Below, in pieces: positions 4,067-22,805 of a stretch of DNA of 41,462 nt. This DNA is from Candidatus Falkowbacteria bacterium RIFOXYC2_FULL_36_12 (GTDB lineage: Bacteria; Patescibacteriota; Patescibacteriia; UBA11705). Position 1 is the stretch's first letter, and the number at the start of each line of letters is the position of its first letter. A program made the translations under genes and the position numbers. The notes beneath the pieces were generated by a model that was given only the letters and a program-made list of their open reading frames with translations, did not search any database and was not told the origin of the DNA. Location of the stretch: contig MFGJ01000007.1 in assembly GCA_001778235.1 (NCBI GenBank), positions 31,116 through 72,577 on the forward strand, read 5' to 3'.

Positions 4067-4603
4067 TTATAGATTAGAAATTTTCGACTGCAATCTACTG
4101 ATTTTGCCAATGACAGACGAGTCAACGACCTTGTCACCAAGTTGCAAACGCAAACCACCAATCAAATGTTTATTAATTATATTTTTTACAATTATCTGCT
4201 GTTCAAGTTTAATTGAAAAAAGTTGTTTCAAAGTTTTTTCTTGCTTGGCGGTCAGAGGGACTACACTCTCAACATTTAGTTCGAAAATTGAATCCTCATC
4301 AAGATTGTTTTTTCTAGCTTCAGCAATAATTGAATCCAAAGTCAGAAGAGCTTTTGACTTCAATAATAAAAATATAAAATTATAAGTCATCTCACTGATA
4401 AAATCCTGGAAAACTACTTTCAGAGCTTTCTTTTTATCAGTAAAACTGATGTGCGGATTGGTCAAGTACTGTTTCAATTCCAGGTTAGCATTCAATTTTT
4501 CGCTGACATCTGTCAAATCTGCAAGCAACTGTTCGAGAATCCCCTTTTCACGACCAAGCCTTGTCAATGCCTTGGCAAAATGTTTTTTATTAATCTTTTT
4601 CAT
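4067..4603 (-). CDS. atpH: F1 ATP synthase subunit delta
   Basis: Position in operon; LGDKVVDSSVIGKISRLQ C-terminal delta motif. Confidence 0.9.
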   Translation of the reverse strand: MKKINKKHFAKALTRLGREKGILEQLLADLTDVSEKLNANLELKQYLTNPHISFTDKKKALKVVFQDFISEMTYNFIFLLLKSKALLTLDSIIAEARKNNLDEDSIFELNVESVVPLTAKQEKTLKQLFSIKLEQQIIVKNIINKHLIGGLRLQLGDKVVDSSVIGKISRLQSKISNL

Positions 4604-4612
4604 GACAATTTA

Positions 4613-5125
4613 TTATTTTAGTTCAGTTTTTTCTAGGTCAAGCAAAACTTGATCTATTAACTTTTCTTGTTGTTTGTCTGTCATAGTATCAGCAGTTAAT
4701 TTACCTGATGCCAATAGAACCAATTCACCTAATTCTGATTTTACTTCCTTAATCATTTTTGCTCGTTCACTAGTTATTTCATTTTTTGCAGAGATAACAA
4801 TTTTTTCAGCTTCTAATTTTGTTTTGGCAAGTTTCTCCTGGCGAACAAGCTCTGCGTCTTTTTCTGATTGTCCAATGATTAATTGAGCCTGCTTTCGGCC
4901 TTCGGCGATTGCTTTTTTCTTTTCCTGCTCTGACTTCGACAGATTTTCTTCAATCAATTCAGCATTTTTCAAGCCATCATCAATTTTCTTACTACGATCT
5001 ACCATCAGCTTCATTAGTGGTCTTAGCCCAAAATAATACAAGACAGAAAAGACAATAATAAAATTGATTCCTTGGGCAATAAGTAATTTCCAATCAATGT
5101 GAAAAGTTTTAATTAATTCGTCCAT
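4613..5125 (-). CDS. atpF: Fo ATP synthase subunit b
   Basis: N-terminal TM helix plus long charged helix; operon position. Confidence 0.92.
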   Translation of the reverse strand: MDELIKTFHIDWKLLIAQGINFIIVFSVLYYFGLRPLMKLMVDRSKKIDDGLKNAELIEENLSKSEQEKKKAIAEGRKQAQLIIGQSEKDAELVRQEKLAKTKLEAEKIVISAKNEITSERAKMIKEVKSELGELVLLASGKLTADTMTDKQQEKLIDQVLLDLEKTELK

Positions 5126-5138
5126 ATATTATGAAATG

Positions 5139-5214
5139 AAGCGAGGTCAGCGAGTACAGCGAGTAAAGCTTATAAATTAACTCTTTACTTGCTGTAGTCT
5201 GTACTTGCTGTTTT
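5139..5214. repeat. Nonamer-based hairpin element, copy 1 (atpE-atpF intergenic)
   Basis: AGCGAGGTC-AGCGAGTAC-AGCGAGTAA-AGC arm versus TTTACTTGCTGTAGTCTGTACTTGCTG arm. Confidence 0.75.
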
Positions 5215-5263
5215 AATTTTCTATTTCTCCCCCACTAATTATTAATGAGGGAACAGCAAAAAA

Positions 5264-5560
<297 letters not shown>

Positions 5561-5630
5561 AATTTTACAAGTTAATTACTGTCGACTTTGAATGAATTTA
5601 TTTATAGTCGGTTTAACTTGATTTCAAGTG

Positions 5631-5703
5631 AATAAAGCGAGTACAGCGAGTACAGTAAATACAGTACCTGTACTTACCTCGCTTTACTTGCTTTAATCGC
5701 TGT
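5631..5703. repeat. Nonamer-based hairpin element, copy 2 (abuts atpB stop codon)
   Basis: AAAGCGAGTACAGCGAGTACAGTAAATACAGTA ... TACTTACCTCGCTTTACTTGCTTTAATCGCTG. Confidence 0.75.
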
Positions 5704-5704
5704 T

Positions 5705-6595
5705 TTAATGTTCTTCTGCTGTACCAGCGATGGTGTAATAAACTAGTGTCAACATACCAAAAATCAAGGCTTGGATAATCCCAACAATAACTTCCAAAAA
5801 CATAAATGGAATTGGTAGCCCAAAAGCAAAAATCACCGCAATCGAACTTAGCAAAACCTCACCAGCAAAAATATTACCGAACAGACGAAAACTTAAGGAA
5901 GCAACTTTGGCAATTTCACCAATTATTTCTACGAGCCCAACAAAAGCTTTGATCGGATTGACAAGAATTATAGCTGGTTCTTTTCTGATTTTCTTCGGTA
6001 TTTCAATCAGTGCATTGAAGTTTATAAATTTGTTGGTGTGTTTCCAAAAACCGACGGTGAACATGCCAAAAATATTTGCGCCAATAACAGAGATCAGGGC
6101 TAATGCCAAAGTAGTATTCAAATCAGCAGTTCCACCTCGAAAATATGGGATAAAAGTATCATTTTCAATAAAACCAATAGAACCTATCCCCGGCAATAGA
6201 CCAAGCCAATTATTCAATAATATAAAAATAAAAAAAGTGAACACAATCGGGAACACTTTCTCTGATTTTTTTCGATCATTGGTAACTGAATCACAAAGGT
6301 TTAGAGCCCCTTCAATCACCATTTCAAAAACATTTTGTAATCCTCTGGGAACTTGTTTTAATTTTAATCTTAGTACAACTGAAAAAATCAAGACTATCAG
6401 AACCACTAACCAGGTATTTAACAAAGAATTTGTTATATTAAAGCTTCCAATAGTGTATATCGGTTCAGCTGACAAGGAAATCTCATGCTCAAACTGTTCC
6501 CCACTTTGTTCAGTGTGGGCTTGAATCTCTCCAGTACGAGTTTCCACTGGTATTTCAATAGAATTATCCAGTTCATTACTAATCACTTGTGACAT
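5705..6595 (-). CDS. atpB: Fo ATP synthase subunit a
   Basis: SLSFRLFGNIFAGEVLL motif, multi-TM. Confidence 0.95.
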   Translation of the reverse strand: MSQVISNELDNSIEIPVETRTGEIQAHTEQSGEQFEHEISLSAEPIYTIGSFNITNSLLNTWLVVLIVLIFSVVLRLKLKQVPRGLQNVFEMVIEGALNLCDSVTNDRKKSEKVFPIVFTFFIFILLNNWLGLLPGIGSIGFIENDTFIPYFRGGTADLNTTLALALISVIGANIFGMFTVGFWKHTNKFINFNALIEIPKKIRKEPAIILVNPIKAFVGLVEIIGEIAKVASLSFRLFGNIFAGEVLLSSIAVIFAFGLPIPFMFLEVIVGIIQALIFGMLTLVYYTIAGTAEEH

Positions 6596-6615
6596 AATAT
6601 GTGAAGCTGAAATTT

Positions 6616-6885
6616 TTATTTTTTATTCTTTTCAGTTTTTTTTGAATTTGATGAGATTTCATTCATGGCTTGGATTGACTTTTTTACAACAGCAATATTG
6701 GTAATGATAAAAGCAATTCCAATTGAAATTAGGAATATCCATGGTGATTTATTATATCTTTCATCAAGCCAATCCCCAACAAAAACTGCCACAATAATCG
6801 GTCCAGCGACCCAAGCTGTTAATTCACCAAATAACTTCATGGCTGGTTGCCACCATTTTTTTTCATTATTTTCGTTGTTCATCAA
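6616..6885 (-). CDS. AtpZ/AtpI-family ATP synthase accessory membrane protein
   Basis: Two TM helices, first gene of the atp operon, typical AtpZ-like size. Confidence 0.75.
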   Translation of the reverse strand: MMNNENNEKKWWQPAMKLFGELTAWVAGPIIVAVFVGDWLDERYNKSPWIFLISIGIAFIITNIAVVKKSIQAMNEISSNSKKTEKNKK

Positions 6886-7048
6886 ATTTTCAAAATATAA
6901 TCACCTTTTATAAAAGGCTTTCGCCTATATTCTACTGAAAATAAATGCTTGTGTCAATAAACCATGTTGATAAACACCAGTTTTTGACAAATAAACCAAA
7001 AAATGACTAAAAATAGTCATCTCTGTATATCTTTTTTTATATGAAAAA

Positions 7049-7891
7049 TTAAAAAACTAAATTAAACAGCTGTTTGGCATTTTTTACTGTCAAATCTGCG
7101 GCTGCATCAAAATTAATTTGACGAATTTCAGCAATCTTCTGAACAACATATTCAACATAGATTGGCTCATTTCTTTTGCCCCGATAAGGCTCTGGTGTTA
7201 AATATGGACAATCTGTCTCGGCTAATATTCGATCTAGAGGCATCTGGGAAATAATATTTTTTGTAGTCCCTGTTTTGTCAAAAGTTATAACACCGGTAAA
7301 ACCAAGGTAAAAGCCTAATTCCAAAAACTGCTTGGCTATTTCCCAATCTGATCCAAAACAATGAATCACTCCCCTTTTTTTCGGCAGATTCTTTTTCAAT
7401 TCACTCAAAATATCTTTGTAGGCATCTTTGGGATTGTCTTTGCTCCCGCGACAATGAAGTATCAATGGAAGCTTATTTTGGTTGGCTAAATCTATTTGGG
7501 AGTGTAAGGCTTTTTTCTGTTTTTCTTTTATTGAATAAATATCTCGAGTAACATCAACATGGTAATAATCCAGTCCACACTCTCCGATTGCGATGACTTT
7601 TTTTTCTTGAGCTAAAATATTAAATGCAGAGTGATCAAATTCTTCAGCTTTGGCGTGAAATTTTACATCATCTTCCTCGACAATAAAATCTTCGAGGTGC
7701 ACAGGATGAAGACCGATTGAAGCATAAGTTTTTTTGAAGTCTGCGGTCATATCAACCGCTCTTTTGCTGGTACTAAATTGTGAGCCAACATTTATAATAG
7801 CAACCTGATGTTTTTCAGCCCTGGCCATTACTTGCTGAAAATCTGATTTAAAATCATTGAAATTTACATGAGCATGAGTATCGATTAACAT
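7049..7891 (-). CDS. tatD: TatD family metal-dependent hydrolase
   Basis: MLIDTHAHVNF, GECGLDYY, ILAETDCPYLTPEPYRGKRNEP. Confidence 0.95.
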   Translation of the reverse strand: MLIDTHAHVNFNDFKSDFQQVMARAEKHQVAIINVGSQFSTSKRAVDMTADFKKTYASIGLHPVHLEDFIVEEDDVKFHAKAEEFDHSAFNILAQEKKVIAIGECGLDYYHVDVTRDIYSIKEKQKKALHSQIDLANQNKLPLILHCRGSKDNPKDAYKDILSELKKNLPKKRGVIHCFGSDWEIAKQFLELGFYLGFTGVITFDKTGTTKNIISQMPLDRILAETDCPYLTPEPYRGKRNEPIYVEYVVQKIAEIRQINFDAAADLTVKNAKQLFNLVF

Positions 7892-7912
7892 AAAGAATCA
7901 TTATTTCACATT

Positions 7913-8410
7913 TTATAAAATACTTTTCAAGGCTTTCAAGGCTTCGGGAAGAAGAGGTAAGAAAATGTAGGAAATCATAAGTAATAATGGCGTAATTAAT
8001 GAATCTGCCATTTGGGAAATCAACCAATCATTGAGCGGATATTTACTTAGGAAATAAATAACAACGGATAAAACCAGAATGCCTTGGACAATCCCAAGAA
8101 CTGAACCAAGAAGTCTCTCAAAAGTTTTGAGAAAAGGAATAATTGCAATTATTTCAAAAACCTTGCCAAATCCCCAGAATAATAAGCTCATTATTTTCAA
8201 TATAAGCGAGAAAATCAGCAGAAAAGCAAAAAAATTGGATAAATTGTTTCCGCCCAGAAATGAGCCCAACAGAAGATAATATTTGCCGGCCAGTACCACG
8301 GCCACAACTAAACCTACCATACTGCCAACAACCTGGAGAAAACCCTGCTTAAAACCCCAAATAGCAAAAATCAAAATAACTCCGATTAGGATATAATCTA
8401 GAATGATCAT
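7913..8410 (-). CDS. CvpA family membrane protein
   Basis: Multi-TM, N-terminal DYILIGVILIFAIWGFKQGFLQ typical of CvpA. Confidence 0.8.
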   Translation of the reverse strand: MIILDYILIGVILIFAIWGFKQGFLQVVGSMVGLVVAVVLAGKYYLLLGSFLGGNNLSNFFAFLLIFSLILKIMSLLFWGFGKVFEIIAIIPFLKTFERLLGSVLGIVQGILVLSVVIYFLSKYPLNDWLISQMADSLITPLLLMISYIFLPLLPEALKALKSIL

Positions 8411-8436
8411 ATTTTTATTTTTATATTTTTATTTTT

Positions 8437-8814
8437 CTAATTTTTTTTACAAATATCGGCTATAGCCTGTAATACTTGCTCCAGCTCATTATATACTTGA
8501 TCGTTTCTAACTCTAAATACATTAATTTGTAGACTCTCCAAATAATCGGTTCGAATTCCGTCATAATAAACTGCCTTATCTGAATAATGCGATGGTCCAT
8601 CAACTTCAATTACCAATCTAGATTCAGGACAATAAAAATCAACAATGTAACGACCAATACTATGCTGTCGTCTAAACTTAATACCACAAAGTTGTTTGCC
8701 TTTAATTCTACTCCATAGCATGACTTCAGCTGAAGTCATGCTATTTCTTAGCTTCCTACGAAGTGGTAATAACTTTCTTTTATTGTGAATTTGTCCCATG
8801 TGTGATTTCCTCAT
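8437..8814 (-). CDS. DUF559 (very-short-patch-repair-like) endonuclease-fold protein
   Basis: MTSAEVMLW...FRRQHSIGRYIVDFYCPESRLVIEVDG motifs. Confidence 0.92.
   Translation of the reverse strand: MRKSHMGQIHNKRKLLPLRRKLRNSMTSAEVMLWSRIKGKQLCGIKFRRQHSIGRYIVDFYCPESRLVIEVDGPSHYSDKAVYYDGIRTDYLESLQINVFRVRNDQVYNELEQVLQAIADICKKN
8715..8744. repeat. Perfect 30-bp palindrome inside the DUF559 coding sequence
   Basis: ATAGCATGACTTCAG|CTGAAGTCATGCTAT, exact inverted repeat. Confidence 0.97.
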
Positions 8815-8820
8815 TGTATA

Positions 8821-8887
8821 ACCACCCCAGAGAAAGGATGCTAATATTCCCCTCCTTTTAGGACAAGGAGGGGATAAGAGAGGTGGT
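8821..8887. repeat. Nested palindromic element upstream of the DUF559 gene
   Basis: ACCACC...CCCCTCCTT-TTAGGAC-AAGGAGGGG...GGTGGT. Confidence 0.85.
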
Positions 8888-8892
8888 AATTT

Positions 8893-10404
8893 TTATTTTC
8901 GCATGAACAAAGACTCACCTTTGTCTAATTTTGTGCCCTCTTTTACTAAACCAATTTCACGATAATTTTCTTCAACAGATTGAATATTCAATTTCTTCAA
9001 TATTTGGTCTGATGTTTCTGGGAGGTATGGAGAAATAGCATAAGCTAAATGTCGAACAATCTCAATCAAATTATATAACACTTGTGACAATTTGTCATTG
9101 TTATTTTTTGCCAGTTCCCATGGTTTTTCTGAATCAATATAATTATCACACCATGAAACCAATTGCTGAATTAATTGAATGTTATCGTAAAGTTTTAAAT
9201 CAGAAAAATTCTTATCATATGTTTGCCAAAAACTTTTTAGATCAAAATCTGCTGTATATTTTCCTGCAGGAACAGAGCTAGAAAAATATTTTTCCGCCAT
9301 ACCTAAAACGCGACTGACAAGATTACCCAAACCATTAGCCAAATCAGCATTGTATTTCTTGACGAATTCTTCCGCCTTTATATCTCCATCATTACCAAAA
9401 GGAAATTGGGAAATAATTAGATATCTTGCAGCGTCTGAACCATAGGTATCAACTAATTCATTTGGATCAATAACATTACCAATACTTTTACTCATTTTTT
9501 GTCCATCAATAGTAAAAAATCCATGGGCAAAACAAACTTTTGGCAAGGGTAAATCAAGCGCCATTAATAAAGCCGGCAAGATAATTGCATGGAACTTCAA
9601 AATATCTTTGGCTAAAAGCTGAACTTCTGCTGGCCAAAATTTCTGGAATTTCTCACTATTATCCTTTATACCAAGTGCAGAAAGATAATTGAGGAGAGCA
9701 TCAACCCAAACATATATTGTTTGGTCCTGGTCAAAAGGAACTTTTATCCCCCAGTCAACACTTGCTCGACTGATAGCAATATCTTGTAAACCGTCGTGAA
9801 TAAAGCTAAGAACTTCGTTTTTTCTTGATTCTGGTTCAACTTTAAATGCTCCTGATTCAATTATTTTTTTTAAATCAGTTTGAAAATCAGATAAACGGAA
9901 AAACCAATTTGCTTCTTTTAGATGGTTTAATTTTTGCTTTGGATGGTCAGGACATTTTCCGTCAACTAAATCGCTCTCTGTTTTGTAGGCTTCACAACCA
10001 GTACAGTACAACCCTTCATATTCTCCCTGATACAATACTGGCTGACCAGAAGGGCCTTTGGCGTCTTTTAACTTTAATAATATTTCGATAACAGCTTCCT
10101 CGTGTCTGAATTCTGTAGTCCGAATAAAATCATTGTTTGATATGTTTAATTTTTGCCAAGTTGCTTGAAACTGCGCAGAAACTTCATCGCTAAAATCTTG
10201 CGGTAATTTACCGGCTTTTTCAGCTGCTTGAGCTATTTTTACTCCATGTTCATCAGTGCCTGTTAACAGAAAAACATTGTCATCCCCTATCTGCTTGCGA
10301 TAATAACGAGCTAAGATGTCGGCGGCAATTGTGGTATAAGCATGACCGAGATGAGGTTTATCGTTGACATAATAAATCGGAGTTGTGATGTAGAATTTGT
10401 TCAT
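8893..10404 (-). CDS. metG: Methionyl-tRNA synthetase
   Basis: YYVNDKPHLGHAYTT (HIGH-type), DGQKMSKSIGN (KMSKS). Confidence 0.97.
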   Translation of the reverse strand: MNKFYITTPIYYVNDKPHLGHAYTTIAADILARYYRKQIGDDNVFLLTGTDEHGVKIAQAAEKAGKLPQDFSDEVSAQFQATWQKLNISNNDFIRTTEFRHEEAVIEILLKLKDAKGPSGQPVLYQGEYEGLYCTGCEAYKTESDLVDGKCPDHPKQKLNHLKEANWFFRLSDFQTDLKKIIESGAFKVEPESRKNEVLSFIHDGLQDIAISRASVDWGIKVPFDQDQTIYVWVDALLNYLSALGIKDNSEKFQKFWPAEVQLLAKDILKFHAIILPALLMALDLPLPKVCFAHGFFTIDGQKMSKSIGNVIDPNELVDTYGSDAARYLIISQFPFGNDGDIKAEEFVKKYNADLANGLGNLVSRVLGMAEKYFSSSVPAGKYTADFDLKSFWQTYDKNFSDLKLYDNIQLIQQLVSWCDNYIDSEKPWELAKNNNDKLSQVLYNLIEIVRHLAYAISPYLPETSDQILKKLNIQSVEENYREIGLVKEGTKLDKGESLFMRK

Positions 10405-12553: not shown

Positions 12554-13135
12554 ATGCATCTCACAGCTCAACAGAAAGAAATAGTTAACAATACAAAAAA
12601 ATTCGTAGAAAAAAGAAAGACTAGATTTCCTAAAGGCGAGGATATGCTTTCTCATAATAAAAATGTTGAAAAATTTGCCGTCGAAATATACCAGGGGTAT
12701 AAAAACATAAAAATCTTTCCGCTCATATTAGCAGCACATTTACATGATATTGGATTATCAGAATCTTCCGACCACGAAAAACACGCTGCTATAGGCTACG
12801 ATATGACAAAAAAGTATCTAAGGAAATATAATTTTATTACTAGCGACCAAATCGAATTAGTAGCATTATGCGCTCTCAATCACCGAGGAGATAAAAAAAC
12901 AAAACGCTCAATAGAGGAAAAGATAATTTCATCAGCTGCGGCGATGGATTTCATTGATCGTTCCCTTTTCTTATTTACAGAAAAATGCAAACACAATAAA
13001 TACAATGACTCTGTAGCATGGATACAAAAAATACTAAATAAAATCATGACAAGAATTGAGCTGCCTGAAGCTCGCAAAATAATCAAACCAAAATACAATG
13101 CTGCCAAAAGAATTTTTGAATTAGAAAATATTTAA
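12554..13135 (+). CDS. HD-domain phosphohydrolase-like protein
   Basis: LAAHLHDIGLSESSDHEKHAAIGYDM HD motif; 9 nt downstream of alaS. Confidence 0.8.
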   Translation: MHLTAQQKEIVNNTKKFVEKRKTRFPKGEDMLSHNKNVEKFAVEIYQGYKNIKIFPLILAAHLHDIGLSESSDHEKHAAIGYDMTKKYLRKYNFITSDQIELVALCALNHRGDKKTKRSIEEKIISSAAAMDFIDRSLFLFTEKCKHNKYNDSVAWIQKILNKIMTRIELPEARKIIKPKYNAAKRIFELENI

Positions 13136-14281
13136 AATATTTTTTCCATATTTTTTAGTCAAGCGATGCAAATTCATTTCCATAGAACAAGCGCCGCACG
13201 ATCCACAACCAGATGTTTTGGAAAGTTTATTTGTCAACCCTTTTTTGTCCATCAGAAGGATGGCTTTTTTTGTTATTCCCAAAAACCACACAGGATTAAT
13301 TCTCTCACGATTTTCTAATGATGACCCTGGAAATGAACGCAGACACAGGAGATTTGTCGGAACGCCGATTTCAGAAAGATATCTAATGCCATCTAATGTG
13401 TCCTGTTCATTCTCCAGGCCAGCGATTAGAACTGAAAAAACCTTAACTCCATTTGCTTTGTTATAATTGAATATATTTTTATATTCATTTACTTTTATTT
13501 CAGATTTACCGGGAAGAAACTCATTTCTAAATCTATCGGAATATACTTCGAGATTTGCAGAAAAAGTATCTAGCTTTAAATTTGCCAATTTTTTCATATT
13601 TTCTAGCTCTTTAGGAGGTGAAGCCTCAATTGCGATTTTAACCTTCCCATCAAATTCACGCAGCTTTTTTAGATATGGAATGTATTTTGCTAATCCTCTA
13701 TCCAGTGAAAAATTATTTCCTCCTGTTAATAAAATCTTTGGACGTCTACCAGTTTTATTAATAACCTGTTTGTAAGCCGACAGTAATGTTGTTGGGCTCA
13801 ACATAATCTTATCCTTTTTCAAAGCACAAAAGGCGCATGCCTTTTTAACTTCCTGGTAGCAACATCCTCTTATGCTGTTTGGAATCTGGGGTATAGCAGC
13901 AATAAGAGTTTCAAAATCCATGTTCACATTCTGATTTCTAATTTTAATTTCTGGAACCAGCGACACCCTAAATAATTTTATCCCATCAAACTCGATTATT
14001 GCATGTTTTTTATTGCCAATCATTTTTATTTTTATTGGATTATCGTTGCTGATATATGAAAATGGAACTAATGCTCTCAGTTGTTTATTCCCAACATAAA
14101 GCTGTATGCCACTATTTCCAGTTCTTTTATCCTTTTTATTACTAAGATCTAATCCCAAATCCACCGATGCCCCACAGCAGACAAGATATGCACAAATTTT
14201 TACCTTATTAGCAAGACAACACGGATTTTTAAAATCCAGATTCAATTCGGAAATATATTGGTTTAATATTTTTTCTTTCAT
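13121..14281 (-). CDS. Radical SAM protein with CX7CX2C cluster motif and C-terminal Cys cluster
   Basis: CYQEVKKACAFCALKK; LLTGGNNFSL; C-terminal SGCGSCGACSME. Confidence 0.8.
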   Translation of the reverse strand: MKEKILNQYISELNLDFKNPCCLANKVKICAYLVCCGASVDLGLDLSNKKDKRTGNSGIQLYVGNKQLRALVPFSYISNDNPIKIKMIGNKKHAIIEFDGIKLFRVSLVPEIKIRNQNVNMDFETLIAAIPQIPNSIRGCCYQEVKKACAFCALKKDKIMLSPTTLLSAYKQVINKTGRRPKILLTGGNNFSLDRGLAKYIPYLKKLREFDGKVKIAIEASPPKELENMKKLANLKLDTFSANLEVYSDRFRNEFLPGKSEIKVNEYKNIFNYNKANGVKVFSVLIAGLENEQDTLDGIRYLSEIGVPTNLLCLRSFPGSSLENRERINPVWFLGITKKAILLMDKKGLTNKLSKTSGCGSCGACSMEMNLHRLTKKYGKNILNIF

Positions 14282-14282
14282 A

Positions 14283-14834
14283 TTAAATATTAAATTGATG
14301 AATTGAGCAACTTGTTATTTCCGGCATTTTTTCATGCGAATCAAATAAGGTGTATAACATTTTTATAGCTGCTCCATGCGTAACAATTGCAATTTTCTTA
14401 TTCCTTATTTCTTTTAAATATTCTAATCCGTCCAGTAGTCTCAATCTAAATGTTTCAAAGCTCTCAATATCTGGCACATCAGCATCGTCAATAAGTTTTC
14501 CATCTCTAAACCACTCCGGGGTTGTCTTCATTATTTCCAATTTGCATTTTCCTTCCAAAAAACCGAAATTTCTTTCTCTAAAACAACTTGATTCATACCC
14601 CATGGAAATTCCCGAACTCATCGATAAAATTTTTGCTGTCTCTATTGCCCTTCCTAAATCACTTGATATTATTATATCAACCTTATTTTTTAATAACTTC
14701 GCCAATTCCATCGCCTGAATTTTACCAACACTAGTTAAGGGGGAATCTAGCCATCCCTGATAAATGCCTGCTCTATTCCATTCAGTTTCAGCATGCTTAA
14801 TAAGTATGATTTCCATATTAAGATAATTCACCAT
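14283..14834 (-). CDS. Histidine phosphatase superfamily (phosphoglycerate mutase-like) protein
   Basis: LIKHAETEWNRAGIYQGWLDSPLTSVGKIQA; THGAAIKML. Confidence 0.88.
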   Translation of the reverse strand: MVNYLNMEIILIKHAETEWNRAGIYQGWLDSPLTSVGKIQAMELAKLLKNKVDIIISSDLGRAIETAKILSMSSGISMGYESSCFRERNFGFLEGKCKLEIMKTTPEWFRDGKLIDDADVPDIESFETFRLRLLDGLEYLKEIRNKKIAIVTHGAAIKMLYTLFDSHEKMPEITSCSIHQFNI

Positions 14835-16002
14835 AAAATTGTTTATCCGTATCCCCAGAGCTTATATTCACCACAATTATTTTTTTGTTATTAATCCTTG
14901 CTTGCTTTATGACCGATGCAATAGCATACCCTGTTTCTAGCGCAACAAACCTTTCCTCACTCTTAAAAAATAACTCAGCAGCATTCTTCGCTTCATTTGA
15001 TGAAAATTGATCAACCTCAATTAATCCTCGACCATGAAAATACGCAACCGGACTAGCAACAATGGTTGATCCTAGACCTCCTATATAATTACCCTTTTTT
15101 AGGCCATCAATCCCATAAGTTTTCATAAGGGGGTAATATTTGAGATTATCAATTGAAAACATTCCAATCCTCCCTTCCGACAAAATCGGACATGTAGCTG
15201 CTTCAGCAGATACAATTTTTGTCTTTCTTTTGTCATCCAATATATCTGCCAAAAATATTGCCGATGTGCCCAGGAGATTGGCTCCGCCACCACAACTGCC
15301 TATAATAATATCCGGATATTGCCCCATTGCCGATAGTTGTTCTTTAATCTCTAATCCAATAATGGATTGTGGGATAATAAAATAACCATAAACTGAACCA
15401 AATATATATCGGGCATTTTTTAATTTTTTTGTATATTCTATAGCCGCATCGGCAGATAAACTAAGGAGATCTTTTACTTTTTCATCTTTTTTTGGATTTA
15501 CAATTATAACCTCTGCACCAAATTTTTCCATCAGACTTTTTCTATCCGGCCTTTTTCTATGACTTTCATAATCCATAAAGCAAATAGTCTTAACTCCAAA
15601 TTTATTGCCCGCCATAGCCAAAGCTATTCCCCAATTACCGGTAGTTTCGGTGGTTATTGTATCAATGCCATCTTTCTTGCAAAGATATGCGATTAAAAAA
15701 GCGCTATTTGCTTTATGGTTTTTCGTTGGAGATTCTCCCTCATCTTTGATATATATTTCGCAATCTGTCCCAATCGCATGCTCAAATTTCTTCGCCCTGA
15801 AAATAGAGGTAGGCCTATATGATTCATAAACTGGCCATAACTCCTCTGGAATTTCTATATATTTATCTCTGGATAGCTCTAATTTTGCCAATGACGGAGG
15901 GATAACTTCGGAAAGAGTATCTAGGGTTATCTCTTTTCCAGAGACAGGATCATGCAGATCAACTGGACAATAATGCTTCAGATTTAAAAATTTTTTAATC
16001 AT
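14818..16002 (-). CDS. TrpB2-like (tryptophan synthase beta-like) PLP-dependent enzyme
   Basis: RPTSIFRAKKFE...KDEGESPTKNHKANSAF (PLP Lys motif); GSCGGGANLLG phosphate-binding loop. Confidence 0.85.
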   Translation of the reverse strand: MIKKFLNLKHYCPVDLHDPVSGKEITLDTLSEVIPPSLAKLELSRDKYIEIPEELWPVYESYRPTSIFRAKKFEHAIGTDCEIYIKDEGESPTKNHKANSAFLIAYLCKKDGIDTITTETTGNWGIALAMAGNKFGVKTICFMDYESHRKRPDRKSLMEKFGAEVIIVNPKKDEKVKDLLSLSADAAIEYTKKLKNARYIFGSVYGYFIIPQSIIGLEIKEQLSAMGQYPDIIIGSCGGGANLLGTSAIFLADILDDKRKTKIVSAEAATCPILSEGRIGMFSIDNLKYYPLMKTYGIDGLKKGNYIGGLGSTIVASPVAYFHGRGLIEVDQFSSNEAKNAAELFFKSEERFVALETGYAIASVIKQARINNKKIIVVNISSGDTDKQFYGELS

Positions 16003-16008
16003 AATTTT

Positions 16009-17325
16009 TTATATGTATTGAAAATATTTAATAACAAAATTTGAAATTTGATCTGCGCCCGCAAATCCTTTTTGATAGTTTAAAACTGATCTCTGCTTAA
16101 CCGCAAGCTTATCTAAAGCTATATCAGTAGAATATTCATTTTTAAGTAAATCCAATAGATCTCTTTGATAGCTTCCTGACTCCTCCCATTCTTCGTATTT
16201 TTTATACATCCAATGCATTTCTTCTATGCCTGATTTAAATTTTATTTTTTTAAGATCCTTCTCTTTTTCATAGATAAGAATACCTGGAAATTCGCCCCCC
16301 ATTTTTCTGTAACCAAGAACCTGAGGATACTGTGTTGAATTTTGCTCTGGAAGAAATATAATAGGAACGCCATAATGAATAGCTTCATATATGGATTTTT
16401 TTCCGGGTGCAGTTATCAGAAGAAACGTTTTCTCCATTATTTTGAGCATTTCTCTATGACTAAAGGATTTCACCTTAATGCCAGCATGCAAATTGAAAAA
16501 TTTCTTATTTTTTTTGATTCTTTCGGCAATTTCAGGATGAACAACAATAATAAATTTCTTGTCTTTATATAATTCATTAATGACTGGGCTTATAAACTTA
16601 GCAATCATCTTTACGTATATATCTAAATCAGCATTATCATTAACTGGATTTTTCATTCCATTAAGATTAATCAAGATATAATCCTTTTTTATCTTTTTAT
16701 TTTTTACCACCGATAAATCTAAAACTGGACTTATTTCCGAAAATTTATTCTTACCTCCAAGGATATCACCCAGTCGAAAAATTCTTTTTTCAGTTCCAGG
16801 AAATTTTTCGTTAATATACGGGAATTTTTCCAAAAAGGAGTGCAGGGAACATTTATTAGACAACAACTGAGATTCGTGTGGCGTTAGGCCTGATTTTTCC
16901 AGCCTGGAAATTTTCTCTAAATAATTACCACCTTTTAATATGTGTTCCATTATTTGACTGTATTTATCATAATTTTTCTTATCTTTTGTCAGCAACCAAA
17001 ACCAAAAATTCGTATCAATATTAATAACTGGAATACAACAATCGTATCCAAAAATAGAGATGTATGGATTGCCACAAGAAATAATCAAATCAAATTTTTT
17101 ATCAATATTTGAAATTCCTTTTATATCTGTCTCTATTATTTTATCAGAATCAAATAACTCTTTATAATTTTTGAAAAAATGCGTAACATTTCCCCACCCC
17201 ACAAGATAATTATCAGATTTAAATCCCTTCCTCTTTAGATTTTTAAGAATATACGCTATGGTAGCTTGCGACCCAAAACCAAAATGCTGAGCCGAAAACA
17301 ATATTTTTGGAATTAATTTTTTCAT
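16009..17325 (-). CDS. GT-B-like glycosyltransferase/epimerase-fold protein
   Basis: FSAQHFGFGSQATIAYILKNLKRKG N-terminal Rossmann; C-terminal LLITAPGKKSIYEAIHYGVPIIFLPEQNSTQYPQ typical of GT28/GT-B. Confidence 0.7.
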   Translation of the reverse strand: MKKLIPKILFSAQHFGFGSQATIAYILKNLKRKGFKSDNYLVGWGNVTHFFKNYKELFDSDKIIETDIKGISNIDKKFDLIISCGNPYISIFGYDCCIPVINIDTNFWFWLLTKDKKNYDKYSQIMEHILKGGNYLEKISRLEKSGLTPHESQLLSNKCSLHSFLEKFPYINEKFPGTEKRIFRLGDILGGKNKFSEISPVLDLSVVKNKKIKKDYILINLNGMKNPVNDNADLDIYVKMIAKFISPVINELYKDKKFIIVVHPEIAERIKKNKKFFNLHAGIKVKSFSHREMLKIMEKTFLLITAPGKKSIYEAIHYGVPIIFLPEQNSTQYPQVLGYRKMGGEFPGILIYEKEKDLKKIKFKSGIEEMHWMYKKYEEWEESGSYQRDLLDLLKNEYSTDIALDKLAVKQRSVLNYQKGFAGADQISNFVIKYFQYI

Positions 17326-17332
17326 AACAGCT

Positions 17333-18364
17333 TTACTTTATAGGACTTGAATATTTTAAATTATTTGTAGTCGCAATGGATACACCTGCATGCAACATCA
17401 TAGGACAATATTTGCAGAAATCCATTCTATTTTTCCGGTATTCTTGCATTTCTTCTCCTTTCCATATGCCTAAAATAGATTCTTTGCGCACATTTCCCAC
17501 AATCGGCTTATGCGTATACTCAGACCCATTACATGGAAGCACATCTCCGTTTGGATAAATCAATAGAAACACATTTGGCCGATTGCATTTTTTGTGTATA
17601 ACTTTTTTCTCCCAATATACCCCATCATAAAACTTACTTTTTGCACTTTTTTTATTACCATAAAATCCACTCAAATTCAAAAGACTTTTTCTATCCAAAA
17701 CGATGTTGTCTTGTTTTTTACGATTATGGTAATCCTTGATTGCCTGTGGCAATATTTCATCCCTGAAAATTTTCAGATCTTTTTTACTCAACAAAAGATA
17801 TTTTTCCGAGTAATCATTCTCCGGGTAATTCAAGCTAAGCGAAGACGCATTAACATCAAACGAGTATGCAATAAAATCACTGAGTCTTTTATAATTATGC
17901 TTATTTACGACAATATGAACAACCAGCCTGACTTTACTTTTTCCTATTAATATTGCAGCGGCATTGGCATATTTAAAACTTCCGCGCCTTCCTCTAATGC
18001 GATCATGCTCTTTTCCATTCGTGCTATATAAAGAGAGCTTGATCTGATCAAGTCCAGACTTTTCTATTTTGTGCAGCAAAGGTCTATCCAGGAAACGGCC
18101 ATTTGTATTTAACGAAACAAAGAAACCCATCTTTTTCGCCTCATAAATCAGCTCTGTTAATTTTTCATAATGAGTTGGCTCACCGCCTGATATTGTAAGA
18201 TAAAAAACTCCCATGTCCCTTGCTTCCTTAAAAACTTTTTTCCATTCAGTTAATGAAATCTCGCTATTGCGCGAATTTAAAATTTGCTTCCTGCTGATGC
18301 AAAATGGGCAATTATGGTCGCAATATCCAGTAGGCTTGATAGTTAGGTGTTTTAATTTTCTCAT
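17333..18364 (-). CDS. Radical SAM protein with SPASM-type C-terminal Cys region
   Basis: CDHNCPFC; ISGGEPTHY; C-terminal CNRPNVFLLIYPNGDVLPCNGSEY...GNVRKESILGIWKGEEMQEYRKNRMDFCKYC. Confidence 0.9.
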   Translation of the reverse strand: MRKLKHLTIKPTGYCDHNCPFCISRKQILNSRNSEISLTEWKKVFKEARDMGVFYLTISGGEPTHYEKLTELIYEAKKMGFFVSLNTNGRFLDRPLLHKIEKSGLDQIKLSLYSTNGKEHDRIRGRRGSFKYANAAAILIGKSKVRLVVHIVVNKHNYKRLSDFIAYSFDVNASSLSLNYPENDYSEKYLLLSKKDLKIFRDEILPQAIKDYHNRKKQDNIVLDRKSLLNLSGFYGNKKSAKSKFYDGVYWEKKVIHKKCNRPNVFLLIYPNGDVLPCNGSEYTHKPIVGNVRKESILGIWKGEEMQEYRKNRMDFCKYCPMMLHAGVSIATTNNLKYSSPIK

Positions 18365-18373
18365 ATTTTTAAA

Positions 18374-20287
18374 CTAATCATTATGCCACCGATATTCTTC
18401 TTTGAGTATATTCTTGGGATTATTGTTGGTTAAAATTTTGTAAATTTTTCGAGACATAGTATCCGCTGAAATAAGTTTTAATTTGTCGGTTTTACAAAAG
18501 TTGTAAAAAAATCCGTCATCTTCTATCTTTTTAATTTTATTTATTGATTCAACAATTTTTGATTTTTTATATTTTGACGACAATATTTTAATTATATTAT
18601 TATCTTCCAGATAATCAAAATGTTGCAATATATCATAATCAACCTCTGATATTTCTTTTATTTTAGAGCTGCCTATGTCCATAACGAAAAATTTATCTTC
18701 TTCGTTGAAAGTAAAATAGCGATATTTTGAATCTGGCACCCTCAGCTTATCAAAAAATTTAATTTTGGAGTCCAAGAAACCTAAGTATTTATCAACTCTT
18801 TCCCTGATTTTATATGTTTCTCCCTTAATCTTTTCCTCATTTATCTCGCCGTTTTTTATCCAGATAATACTTTCTTTGGTAAAATTTGCGTATATATCAG
18901 TTAATTTTTTGAGTAATTTCTCATACTCTTCTCTGCCAGCTAACGACTTTTTATTTTTTATACCATTAATAACCCAGTGTCTATTTTTATTAATAATATC
19001 AATCCACTCCACAAAAATAATTTTTATCGCCATGTATGCCTTTGCAACATCCTTGTCCACATAATAATCATGGTAACCATCCATTACATTATTGTGAATA
19101 ATCTTTTTCTCATTTTCCAACATTTTTTGCAGGCTTGCCCCATCATGCACCTTTAATGCCTTATGAATATCAGTGCCATAACTTTTTATCTTTTCCAGGA
19201 ATTCTATGTCTTTCAAAATGGAATCCAATGTTGAATATGGATTAAATAGTATGGCAGCGGGGAAAACGGAGATCTCCAACTTTTTAAGTTTCCTGATAGC
19301 CTCCTTTATTTGCCCCGAACTTACTTGCTTGTTGAATTTTTTTAAAGTGTAATCATCTAATGTTTCCATTCCTACTAATAATCTTTCGAATCCGGCCTTT
19401 TTCATCTTTATTACTACATCTTCTCGAATATCGTCTGCTCTGCACAAGGCCATTAGATGTAATTTAAGCCCTCTTTTTATTATTAAATCACTAATTCCAA
19501 TCACGCGATCAATTCCTGCTTGTCCCGGCCCAAATAGCTCATCGTCTTGGAACTTTATAACTGAAACTCCAAATGTTTTATTTAGATATTCTAATTCATC
19601 AACCACATTTTCTGGCGATCTCCCTCTCCAACAGGAACCTACATTTATCCTATTAAACGAATTCTGGCTACAAAAAGTACAACTTCCGTAGCAACCCCTA
19701 CTTGAAAAGAAACAAGCATACCCAATACGCTTCATCGAATGCAACAGGAGATCCCTAGCGGGAAAAGGTATGGAATCAAGATTGCTTATTTTTTCTCTTG
19801 GCTTATTGAAATACAATAATCCGTTCTTTTTTCTATACGCCAGCCCCTTTATTTTTGCTAATGTTTTTTTCTCAAATATACGCTCTACAAGCTCAAGTAA
19901 TGTATCCTCTCCTTCCCCTAAAACAATTGAATCTAGTTGATCAATGGCATCAAACAAAGATCTCGGCGAAAGGGTTGGCGTTATGCCACCAAAACAAAGA
20001 TGAAAATTTTTATCTTTGTTTGTAACAAGATTTACTATGGTTTTTATCGTAGGCAACGCCCGCTGCGTCACGGAAAATCCCAATATTTTGAATTTTTTCA
20101 TTTTTATTATTTCTGCGGTCTGATTTGCGCTTAAACCAAACATGTCGGCATCCATTATGTCGACCGAATAACCATTTTTTCGCAAAACTGCTGCCAAATA
20201 CAAAATTCCAAGTGGCTCTTTAGGATCTTGATCTCCAAATCTCGTGGTCTTATAAATGGGGGGGTGAACCAATAGTATATCTGCCAT
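18374..20287 (-). CDS. Cobalamin-binding-domain radical SAM protein with C-terminal RRE/PqqD-like domain
   Basis: N-terminal ILLVHPP...EPLGILYLAAVLRKNGYSVDIMDAD B12-binding fold; SSRGCYGSCTFCSQ CX3CX2C; residues ~522-597 resemble the SCIFF-maturase N-terminal RRE. Confidence 0.85.
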   Translation of the reverse strand: MADILLVHPPIYKTTRFGDQDPKEPLGILYLAAVLRKNGYSVDIMDADMFGLSANQTAEIIKMKKFKILGFSVTQRALPTIKTIVNLVTNKDKNFHLCFGGITPTLSPRSLFDAIDQLDSIVLGEGEDTLLELVERIFEKKTLAKIKGLAYRKKNGLLYFNKPREKISNLDSIPFPARDLLLHSMKRIGYACFFSSRGCYGSCTFCSQNSFNRINVGSCWRGRSPENVVDELEYLNKTFGVSVIKFQDDELFGPGQAGIDRVIGISDLIIKRGLKLHLMALCRADDIREDVVIKMKKAGFERLLVGMETLDDYTLKKFNKQVSSGQIKEAIRKLKKLEISVFPAAILFNPYSTLDSILKDIEFLEKIKSYGTDIHKALKVHDGASLQKMLENEKKIIHNNVMDGYHDYYVDKDVAKAYMAIKIIFVEWIDIINKNRHWVINGIKNKKSLAGREEYEKLLKKLTDIYANFTKESIIWIKNGEINEEKIKGETYKIRERVDKYLGFLDSKIKFFDKLRVPDSKYRYFTFNEEDKFFVMDIGSSKIKEISEVDYDILQHFDYLEDNNIIKILSSKYKKSKIVESINKIKKIEDDGFFYNFCKTDKLKLISADTMSRKIYKILTNNNPKNILKEEYRWHND

Positions 20288-20294
20288 AATTTAT

Positions 20295-21332
20295 TTAAAA
20301 TCCTTTAACTTGTAACTTGGAGCCAACTTCCTTGATCCATGACTTTTTGCAATCACATTTAAAAGCCAGGACAGCATCCGTAATTATACGCACATTTTTT
20401 TGATGCCGATTGATATCATTGAGATAATTCCTTATTTTATTTGAACAAGTGCAAATTTTTCCAGATTCGTCATAATTCGAAGGAACGGATATTGTTTCCA
20501 CATTATCCTTATAATTTCCCAAAATAATTTTAAAATCATATTTCTGCTCCTTTCTTATTTTGTCCAAAATTTCAATTGACTTGGCTATGCTATATAGCCA
20601 GATAGGTTTAAACTCATTTCTAAAATAAGGAATCTTAGCAATAAAAGAATTTTCCGCAACAAAAAATGGCTGGACCGCAACCACAAGACTGCTTGGTTTA
20701 TTTTTCATTAAACACACCAAATCCTTTACGCTTTTTGCCAAGTCCACAATTGATTCATATTCGCTCATATCAACGGGAGGTTTCAATAAAAGATAAGCTT
20801 GAAATCCCACTCCTTCTTTCTGTAACACATCGATAGCCTTGATGAATCTTTTTTTTGTAAATCCCTTTGCGGTCTTTCTCCTTATTTCATCGCTCATTGT
20901 TTCTAGGCCAACAGCGATAAATAATTTTTTTGGATCAATATATTTTGTTAAGTCTTTTATGTTTTTTGAATTGATAAATTCAGGTCTCGTTTCCAAAACT
21001 ATTTCCTTAATGGAATCTCGATTCAAGGTCTTTACAATCTCCTGACGCGAATTTGCCGAAACCTCACAATCATCAAAAAAACTTCCAGAACTATAAACCT
21101 CAACCCTTGAAATGCTTTTTGTATAATTTTTTTCGAAAAAATCCAAAAAATAACCCCCAACTTTTTGGGGTTCAATTGGTTTTTCCCAATTTATAAAGCC
21201 ACAGTATACGCATCTTTTTCCTTTTCGAACGCTAATACAAGGCACTGTGTTGATGCCTATTTTCCATCGGAGCCCATTTTCATATGGTTCCTTCAGATTT
21301 AGGGTTATTTTCGACTTATTTTTGAATTTCAT
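20295..21332 (-). CDS. Radical SAM protein resembling the TIGR01210/RaSEA-like (Elp3-like) family
   Basis: LRWKIGINTVPCISVRKGKRCVYCGF (CX8CX2C); VEVYSSGSFFDD; LETRPEF; GLETMSDEIRR. Confidence 0.7.
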   Translation of the reverse strand: MKFKNKSKITLNLKEPYENGLRWKIGINTVPCISVRKGKRCVYCGFINWEKPIEPQKVGGYFLDFFEKNYTKSISRVEVYSSGSFFDDCEVSANSRQEIVKTLNRDSIKEIVLETRPEFINSKNIKDLTKYIDPKKLFIAVGLETMSDEIRRKTAKGFTKKRFIKAIDVLQKEGVGFQAYLLLKPPVDMSEYESIVDLAKSVKDLVCLMKNKPSSLVVAVQPFFVAENSFIAKIPYFRNEFKPIWLYSIAKSIEILDKIRKEQKYDFKIILGNYKDNVETISVPSNYDESGKICTCSNKIRNYLNDINRHQKNVRIITDAVLAFKCDCKKSWIKEVGSKLQVKGF

Positions 21333-22253: not shown

Positions 22254-22282
22254 TTGACATTTATTAATGAATATGCTATAAT
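22254..22282 (+). promoter_or_regulatory. Strong consensus promoter for the large ncRNA
   Basis: TTGACA-17 nt-TATAAT with extended TGC. Confidence 0.85.
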
Positions 22283-22289
22283 TGTTAGT

Positions 22290-22775
22290 TGTAAATTAAA
22301 AAAAGGCAATTTCGCATCACAACCAAGAACATAAGTACGAGGTAAAAATGCGGAAGAGGCTCTAGGACCGTCAAGGAAACGAAGAACGACTTGGCGGGAT
22401 CAGGCTGAAGCAGACAGTGAAGAAGACACTGCTGAAGCCTAAAGGTTCTTCACCCCTCAATCCCAAGTGTCCACAACCCTTCAAAATGTGGGCAAAAATG
22501 GGAGATGAGGGTCGTCAGCTGAAATGCTGATCTCGTCGGCAGGAACATATTTATGTTACCTGGCCGTTAACCCATTTGCAGTGGCTCTTTCATCTCCCTA
22601 GCTGAGGCTAAGGAGAAAAAGGAAACTTCGTGGAGCGTCATAGTTAACCACCCCGGGAATAGGAATTAGGGCGCCCGGCCAGTGGAAAACCCGAGAAAAT
22701 CTCGGGCAGAAAATTGGGATAGCTAACAAAGCGATTCCCTTAGGTCCTCCCCCCGTCGCAAGTGTCGGGGTTTTT
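22290..22775 (+). ncRNA. Candidate large structured non-coding RNA, family unknown
   Basis: Consensus promoter, no ORF, several compensated stems (AGGACC 22364-22369 with GGTCCT 22743-22748; GGGAGATGA 22500-22508 with TCATCTCCC 22590-22598; CCCGAGA-aaa-TCTCGGG 22690-22706), terminator at the 3' end. Confidence 0.75.
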
Positions 22776-22782
22776 TTATTTT
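22751..22782 (+). terminator. Rho-independent terminator of the large ncRNA
   Basis: CCCCG-tcgcaagtgt-CGGGG followed by T7. Confidence 0.85.
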
Positions 22783-22805
22783 TTAAATTAGAAGGCTACA
22801 ATGAG

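Follow-up and report, generated by a model that had tools for sequence, protein, structure and literature searches.

The stretch of DNA analysed (41,462 nucleotides, in the following referred to as the window) carries an operon of seven genes which most likely makes a small molecule. Three of its enzymes, designated p7, p3 and p1, move as a group between distant phyla. The reading which we prefer is that of a specialised-metabolite operon with p7-p3-p1 as its conserved three-enzyme core; we hold it tentatively, at somewhat less than an even chance, and the product itself is a prediction. The constituent parts belong to known superfamilies and their combination matches no described pathway, so that the system was rightly called undescribed in the original prediction. 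This prediction had envisaged either a biosynthetic or a peptide-maturation operon. The former gains support from the recurrence of the core and from p3 relatives located next to NRPS genes, while peptide maturation is given up as the main reading since no precursor-like small ORF was found. Small-genome bacteria of the CPR type are believed to synthesise hardly anything themselves. If our reading is true, a pathway of seven genes, four of them encoding oxygen-sensitive radical enzymes, would constitute a striking exception among such bacteria and could bear on their action upon hosts or rivals. Clusters of the antibiotic type in very different microbes contain relatives of p3.

Operon layout and host genome

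The seven co-directional ORFs follow each other unbroken on the minus strand from position 21332 to position 13121 and are named from p7 (first) to p1 (last). On re-computation, both the ORFs and their borders were found exactly as originally predicted. From p7 onwards the genes are separated by gaps of 7, 9, 7 and 6 nt, followed by a 17-nt overlap of p3 with p2 and by a single nucleotide between p2 and p1. Pfam and NCBIfam enabled a family placement for all seven proteins, four of which (p7, p6, p5 and p1) are radical-SAM members. As none of the seven passes the NCBIfam cut-off of any named function, each of them has to be considered a divergent member. The features are as follows (window coordinates):

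20295..21332, minus strand: p7, first gene, radical-SAM protein on the RaSEA/queuine-lyase/Elp3 side of the superfamily; CX8CX2C, C-terminal CxC...CxC
18374..20287, minus strand: p6, cobalamin-binding radical-SAM enzyme of 637 aa (PF02310 and PF04055)
18497..18712, minus strand: RRE-like domain (PqqD/SCIFF-maturase type) near the C-terminus of p6, residues about 526-597, suggested by weak sequence matches
17333..18364, minus strand: p5, radical-SAM/SPASM enzyme, CX3CX2C (PF04055 and PF13186)
16009..17325, minus strand: p4, GT-B glycosyltransferase, distantly cytosylglucuronate (CGA) synthase-like (weak GT28_C match, TIGR04467, structure model)
14818..16002, minus strand: p3, PLP enzyme belonging to a clade of its own, apart from TrpB2 (PALP/TrpB2-like; identity, tree)
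15629..15717, minus strand: p3 signature HKxN-19 aa-ETxGNxG, formed by the PLP lysine loop and the substrate loop (pattern search)
14283..14834, minus strand: p2, histidine phosphatase (branch 1), nearest model alpha-ribazole phosphatase (PF00300)
13121..14281, minus strand: p1, radical-SAM protein of the variant/MSMEG_0568 group; CX8CX2C, C-terminal GCxxCGxC

The host genome comprises 1,088,258 bases (1.09 Mb) on 8 contigs and is estimated to be 99.8% complete. It had been described as streamlined, which is true in relative terms only, as it contains 18 radical-SAM matches, 17 of them above the family cut-off, and is thus not poor in such enzymes. Contamination was rejected as an origin of the operon, since the contig around it measures 334 kb and has an ordinary composition. 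Its base composition approximates that of the flanking DNA, with the lowest value being found for p4 (29.8% G+C). The operon was also considered as a genomic island, but its composition is not clearly foreign, and no empty site could be defined since the gene order around alaS varies among the relatives.

The PLP enzyme p3 and its gene company

Judged by its sequence, p3 is not a TrpB2, the tryptophan synthase beta that forms tryptophan from indole and serine or phosphoserine, but a relative with altered active-site loops. With TrpB2 and TrpB-like proteins (TIGR01415, PRK12391) it shares the fold, the PLP lysine of HKxN and the glutamate of the ET loop, and its identity to the TrpB2 proteins of its own phylum amounts to 30-36%. 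In contrast, its score on the TrpB2 model TIGR01415 (258.6 bits) falls well below the curated cut-off of 518.85 bits. Conspicuous differences concern the active-site loops, which read KNHKAN and ETTGNWG in p3 compared to GSHKxN and ETGAGQWG in TrpB2 of the same phylum; hence, (N)HK is present instead of GSHK, and VALETGY is likewise found in place of APESAHA. The substrate loop of p3 is one residue shorter, as is also evident from an alignment with solved TrpB, and the TGN which it contains resembles loops of the cysteine-synthase type (CysK-like). In a tree including TrpB2 and TrpB1 of the phylum, p3 and nine relatives form a clade of their own with a support of 100/100, all members of which retain the PLP lysine of HKxN and the E of ET. 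The original designation of p3 as a TrpB2-like PLP enzyme therefore holds with respect to kinship, while score, loops and clade set it apart from TrpB2. Neither a described enzyme like p3 nor a function for its clade was found in the open-licence literature, which is weak evidence of absence. This clade, a group of tryptophan-synthase relatives with a rebuilt active site, poses a clean and testable enzyme question.

The distribution of the clade was traced by scanning one public genome collection with a DNA pattern encoding HKxN, 19 residues and ETxGNxG. The pattern occurs once in the window, never in shuffles thereof and never in the viral contigs searched. In the genome collection it is present at 16 places, nine of which encode p3 relatives of 48-64% identity. 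The nine further clade members belong to Dehalococcoidia, Nanoarchaeia, Paenibacillus, Bacteroidetes and actinomycetes. On the Dehalococcoidia contig, p7 (41% identity), p3 (64%) and p1 (48%) are consecutive on a single strand and are preceded, on the same strand, by genes for DXS, a polyprenyl synthase, IPP isomerase and UbiA (UbiA named from Pfam, the other three read off their sequences). On the Nanoarchaeia contig, genes for a SpeD-like protein, p3 (58%), a RaSEA-like relative of p7 (28%) and a QueC-like protein succeed each other with 4-nt overlaps. Although the scan used the p3 motif alone, one of the contigs which it returned harbours p7 and p1 orthologs adjoining p3, and the recurrence of the core thus exceeds what chance would provide. 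The test of co-occurrence proposed in the original prediction has accordingly turned out in favour of conservation, p7-p3-p1 recurring together in one genome of the Dehalococcoidia, and p3 in combination with a p7-like protein in one of the Nanoarchaeia. Against the metabolite reading it must be said that only the core is conserved as a unit, p2, p4, p5 and p6 not being found with it in one other genome, and that the Dehalococcoidia core adjoins isoprenoid genes instead.

Members of the p3 clade in bacteria and archaea are repeatedly found next to NRPS genes and in the company of radical-SAM enzymes. In Paenibacillus and in actinomycetes the p3 orthologs mostly adjoin NRPS genes: that of P. 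amylolyticus is flanked by carbamoyltransferase and NRPS genes, that of Dactylosporangium by penicillin amidase and NRPS genes, and an NRPS is encoded near that of Kutzneria, while a periplasmic binding protein (siderophore-type) is encoded near that of S. aculeolatus. In P. ehimensis we observed an apparent nucleoside-peptide cluster which includes a p3-clade enzyme. There, the genes after p3 are, in order, AsnB-like, HprK-like, HAD and phosphotransferase-like, followed by an unnamed gene and then by genes for a BlsE-like radical-SAM enzyme (TIGR04466, 161 bits), a DegT protein, a CGA-synthase-like glycosyltransferase (TIGR04467, 69.8 bits) and a second DegT protein. The row ends with a protein of the NRPS condensation type and a pair of ABC exporters (phosphotransferase, condensation-type and exporter genes named by eye). 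The CGA-synthase-like glycosyltransferase is a relative of p4 (E 2e-8) and the BlsE-like protein a relative of p5 (8.6e-11). It is the occurrence of p3 relatives beside NRPS genes and in this one nucleoside-type cluster which makes a specialised metabolite the best reading of the operon.

Among the genomes sampled, the complete seven-gene set was found nowhere else. No close ortholog of p7 is present in 93 related genomes (best other match 31%), and none of p1 in 380 genomes of the phylum, which yielded three weak matches, nor does any of 147 further genomes of the Dehalococcoidia class contain a p1 ortholog. With p4 and its paralog as queries, four weak matches were obtained from genomes of the phylum; p5 and its paralog gave matches at sub-family level only, and the best match to the p3 clade, of which no member was found, is a TrpB2 at 36%. 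The operon is hence near-unique among the sampled genomes and not typical of its phylum; a search of the open-licence literature for a matching CPR system returned none, which again is weak evidence of absence. Judged from this distribution rather than from synteny, the operon was likely gained horizontally. That the full set was found in one genome only could also mean that unrelated genes, each with a minor function of its own, have been gathered in one transcript by chance. The conservation of the core across distant phyla and the joint duplication of the p4/p5 pair within the genome argue against this explanation, which we regard as very unlikely.

Radical-SAM enzymes of the operon

Along most of its length p7 aligns with archaeosine RaSEA (PMC11298593) and queuine lyase. 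On the RaSEA model TIGR01210 it reaches 142.7 bits and remains, like its relative from Nanoarchaeia (169.5 bits) and its ortholog from Dehalococcoidia (135.5 bits), below the cut-off of 212 bits; its radical-SAM Pfam score (28.8 bits) is slightly below the respective cut-off. When p7 and three of its relatives were combined in a profile and compared with solved structures, queuine lyase (6p78, 6e-11) and also Elp3 were retrieved. Searches with p7 gave no match in phages or in viral contigs and two weak Streptomyces matches in plasmids. In another genome of the class, a protein encoded at L036:6656-8302 possesses a RaSEA-like C-terminal half with 28% identity to p7, preceded by a long N-terminal part which by eye is GNAT acetyltransferase-like.

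Kinship with RaSEA and queuine lyase would suit an operon for tRNA modification of the 7-deazaguanine type, in which p7 would act on tRNA and its neighbours would supply the added group, and both the QueC-like neighbour in Nanoarchaeia and the TGT gene which each of the three genomes with a full or half core contains fit this assumption. In each of these genomes, however, there is a single TGT-family match (ArcTGT or bacterial), a second match of the ArcS type being absent, p7 scores under the RaSEA cut-off, and its partners, unlike those of RaSEA, are p3 and p1 instead of ArcS or other tRNA enzymes. Moreover, such a pathway offers no role to p4, p5, p6 and p2, and the system is missing from nearly all relatives, which is at variance with housekeeping tRNA modification. 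Thus, we consider a role in tRNA modification highly improbable; a housekeeping function of this sort, named in the original prediction as a case that would speak against it, is unlikely.

The second radical-SAM enzyme of the core, p1, scores under the cut-offs of NF045502 (82.6 bits) and TIGR04043 (69.4 bits). It aligns along its radical-SAM part with the MSMEG_0568, or variant, radical-SAM proteins of the nitrilase-cluster type, although at an identity of about 25% and in surroundings which contain no nitrilase-cluster genes. Its structure model comes closest to barrels of the lipoyl synthase/NifB type. While four radical-SAM proteins with four cluster motifs had been predicted, and the four proteins are indeed present, Cys140 is kept in all five aligned p1 sequences, and the motif of p1 is therefore CX8CX2C, as in p7, and not CX7CX2C.

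From its domain content, p6 classes as a cobalamin-dependent radical-SAM enzyme: PF02310 (59.3 bits, cut-off 32.1) is followed by PF04055 (61.9 bits), with the CX3CX2C motif present as CYGSCTFC. Its best NCBIfam model is BchE (146 bits, cut-off 481), the score exceeding that on any nucleoside enzyme. The nearest solved sequence is OxsB (3.7e-21), which tells little since few B12 radical-SAM enzymes have been solved. With OxsB (oxetanocin) and BchE, p6 shares the layout of B12-binding and radical-SAM domains; it differs from them by the additional C-terminal RRE-like domain, by its score under the BchE cut-off and by company that includes neither a tetrapyrrole partner nor OxsA. The RRE-like stretch, contained in the last 110 residues, has no Pfam match and gives weak matches to NF040492 (2.6e-5), TIGR03974 (7e-4) and RumMC (0.004), all three of which fall on the N-terminal RRE stretch of these maturase models, as well as a weak match to residues 17-79 of CteB (5wgg, E 0.005). 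In the same genome, five proteins matching p6 (B12 radical-SAM type) are encoded within 20 kb of contig C6 (about 178-198 kb).

The sequence of p5 displays the radical-SAM core (PF04055, 78.5 bits) together with a SPASM domain (PF13186, 48.2 bits), which places it among the SPASM radical-SAM enzymes. Its best NCBIfam model is PqqE (128 bits), and its nearest solved relatives are PqqE and then BlsE; on the BlsE model TIGR04466 it obtains 58.1 bits with the cut-off at 400. Searched against viral contigs, p5 and its paralog gave one irrelevant match.

Maturation of a RiPP would be consistent with the PqqE-likeness of p5 and with the RRE-like domain at the end of p6: p5 and p6 would modify a precursor bound by this domain, and p4 would glycosylate it. 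The matches of p6 to maturase RRE regions and to CteB keep this reading in consideration, yet they are weak and by sequence only. Neither within or around the operon nor at the paralog cluster described below is there a precursor-like small ORF, in line with the original remark that no precursor peptide is obvious, so that a precursor would have to be encoded elsewhere in the genome, which is possible. Furthermore, the conserved core consists of p7, p3 and p1 and includes neither p5 nor p6, and the clusters served by the p3 orthologs are of the NRPS type, for which free amino acids are the building blocks. A RiPP system is in our view unlikely.

Tailoring enzymes, proposed chemistry and neighbouring features

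The GT-B-like nature originally ascribed to p4 was confirmed by an AlphaFold model (pLDDT 70), for which Foldseek retrieved GT-B folds such as YjiC, macrolide glycosyltransferases and CalG2. The top NCBIfam model, TIGR04467 (CGA synthase), covers part of the protein only and scores 23.9 bits with a cut-off of 300. No match to p4 was found in plasmids. Its relatives are located at L039, L113, L114, L055 and L056, of which L113 is the P. ehimensis cluster and L039 lies on contig C2 of the genome that contains the operon. The histidine phosphatase assignment of p2 likewise proved correct (PF00300, 128 bits); on TIGR03162 p2 obtains 94.9 bits, below the cut-off of 162.9.

On contig C2, positions 4324-9381 hold a second cluster with paralogs of both p4 (23%, 3e-24) and p5 (33%, 1e-57). 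Its genes encode, in order, the p4 paralog (TIGR04467, 30.2 bits, cut-off 300), a purine-type phosphoribosyltransferase (APRT/HPT-like, 108.8 bits), a full LysRS, the p5 paralog and a methyltransferase. Since contig C7 encodes another full LysRS (485 bits), that of C2 (525 bits) is an extra copy. In two further genomes of the phylum, a p4 relative adjoins a B12 radical-SAM gene, with IMPDH, nucleoside-hydrolase and ABC genes nearby (G138), and is part of an aminosugar-type cluster with two radical-SAM genes (G421).

The latter cluster would agree with an operon for a cell-envelope glycan or a lipid-linked sugar, in which p4 would act as an envelope glycosyltransferase while the radical-SAM proteins would modify sugar or lipid. 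The isoprenoid and UbiA genes flanking the Dehalococcoidia core, as well as the further stretch rich in B12 radical-SAM genes in the genome that contains the operon, point in the same direction. The operon, however, contains no nucleotide-sugar, flippase or polymerase gene, and p3, for which no role in glycan formation is known, is found beside NRPS genes. We judge an envelope function to be improbable.

Returning to the specialised metabolite, an aminoacyl-glycoside or nucleoside-type product is our specific guess, drawn by analogy. The known relatives of p4, p5, p6 and p7 and the p4/p5 paralog cluster all point to nucleobase or nucleoside chemistry: CGA synthase for p4, BlsE for p5, OxsB for p6 and deazaguanine enzymes for p7, to which the phosphoribosyltransferase on C2 and the P. 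ehimensis cluster may be added. Individually these signals are not strong, some being biased by which enzymes have been studied, and all proteins of the operon stay below the curated cut-offs of the nucleoside-pathway models. In the blasticidin S-type nucleoside pathway, BlsD is the CGA synthase and BlsE a decarboxylase (PMC3715490). As in this pathway, a GT-B glycosyltransferase and a SPASM radical-SAM enzyme are combined in one operon here, and the P. ehimensis cluster unites p3 with BlsE-like and CGA-synthase-like genes. In contrast to it, the present operon contains four radical-SAM enzymes plus p3, and both p4 (23.9 of 300 bits) and p5 (58.1 of 400 bits) remain far under the BlsD and BlsE cut-offs.

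The reactions proposed in the following, their order and their product are predictions. p3 would catalyse a beta-replacement or beta-elimination on an amino acid of the serine/threonine type and thereby provide an unusual amino-acid unit, the C-N or C-C bonds of which p7 and p1 would break or rearrange by radical chemistry. The remaining enzymes would contribute tailoring steps specific to this genome, namely sugar transfer from a nucleotide-sugar donor (p4), oxidation or decarboxylation (p5), methylation or ring remodelling (p6) and phosphate removal (p2). The operon has no exporter, resistance or ligase gene as a direct neighbour, which counts against a metabolite. In its boldest form, which we consider possible albeit doubtful, the proposal takes p7-p3-p1 as a mobile core that yields a new small-molecule class, shared by bacteria and archaea: a repurposed TrpB2 would make a novel amino-acid unit for radical-SAM remodelling, built here into a glycosylated nucleoside-like product that has no known counterpart.

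Two neighbouring features of the window deserve mention. On the plus strand, positions 12554-13135 encode an HD-domain protein convergent with p1, the last 15 bases overlapping. It was considered as an OxsA-like partner and rejected, as it has no match among solved structures. An HD-type protein likewise precedes p3 in P. amylolyticus. On the other side of the operon, positions 22254-22790 (plus strand) probably encode a structured RNA about 500 nt long. The region has no Rfam match at E values up to 1 and contains no tRNA or tmRNA; it shows a perfect TTGACA-17-TATAAT promoter with TG, a T-rich terminator at its end and a fold z-score of -5.6.
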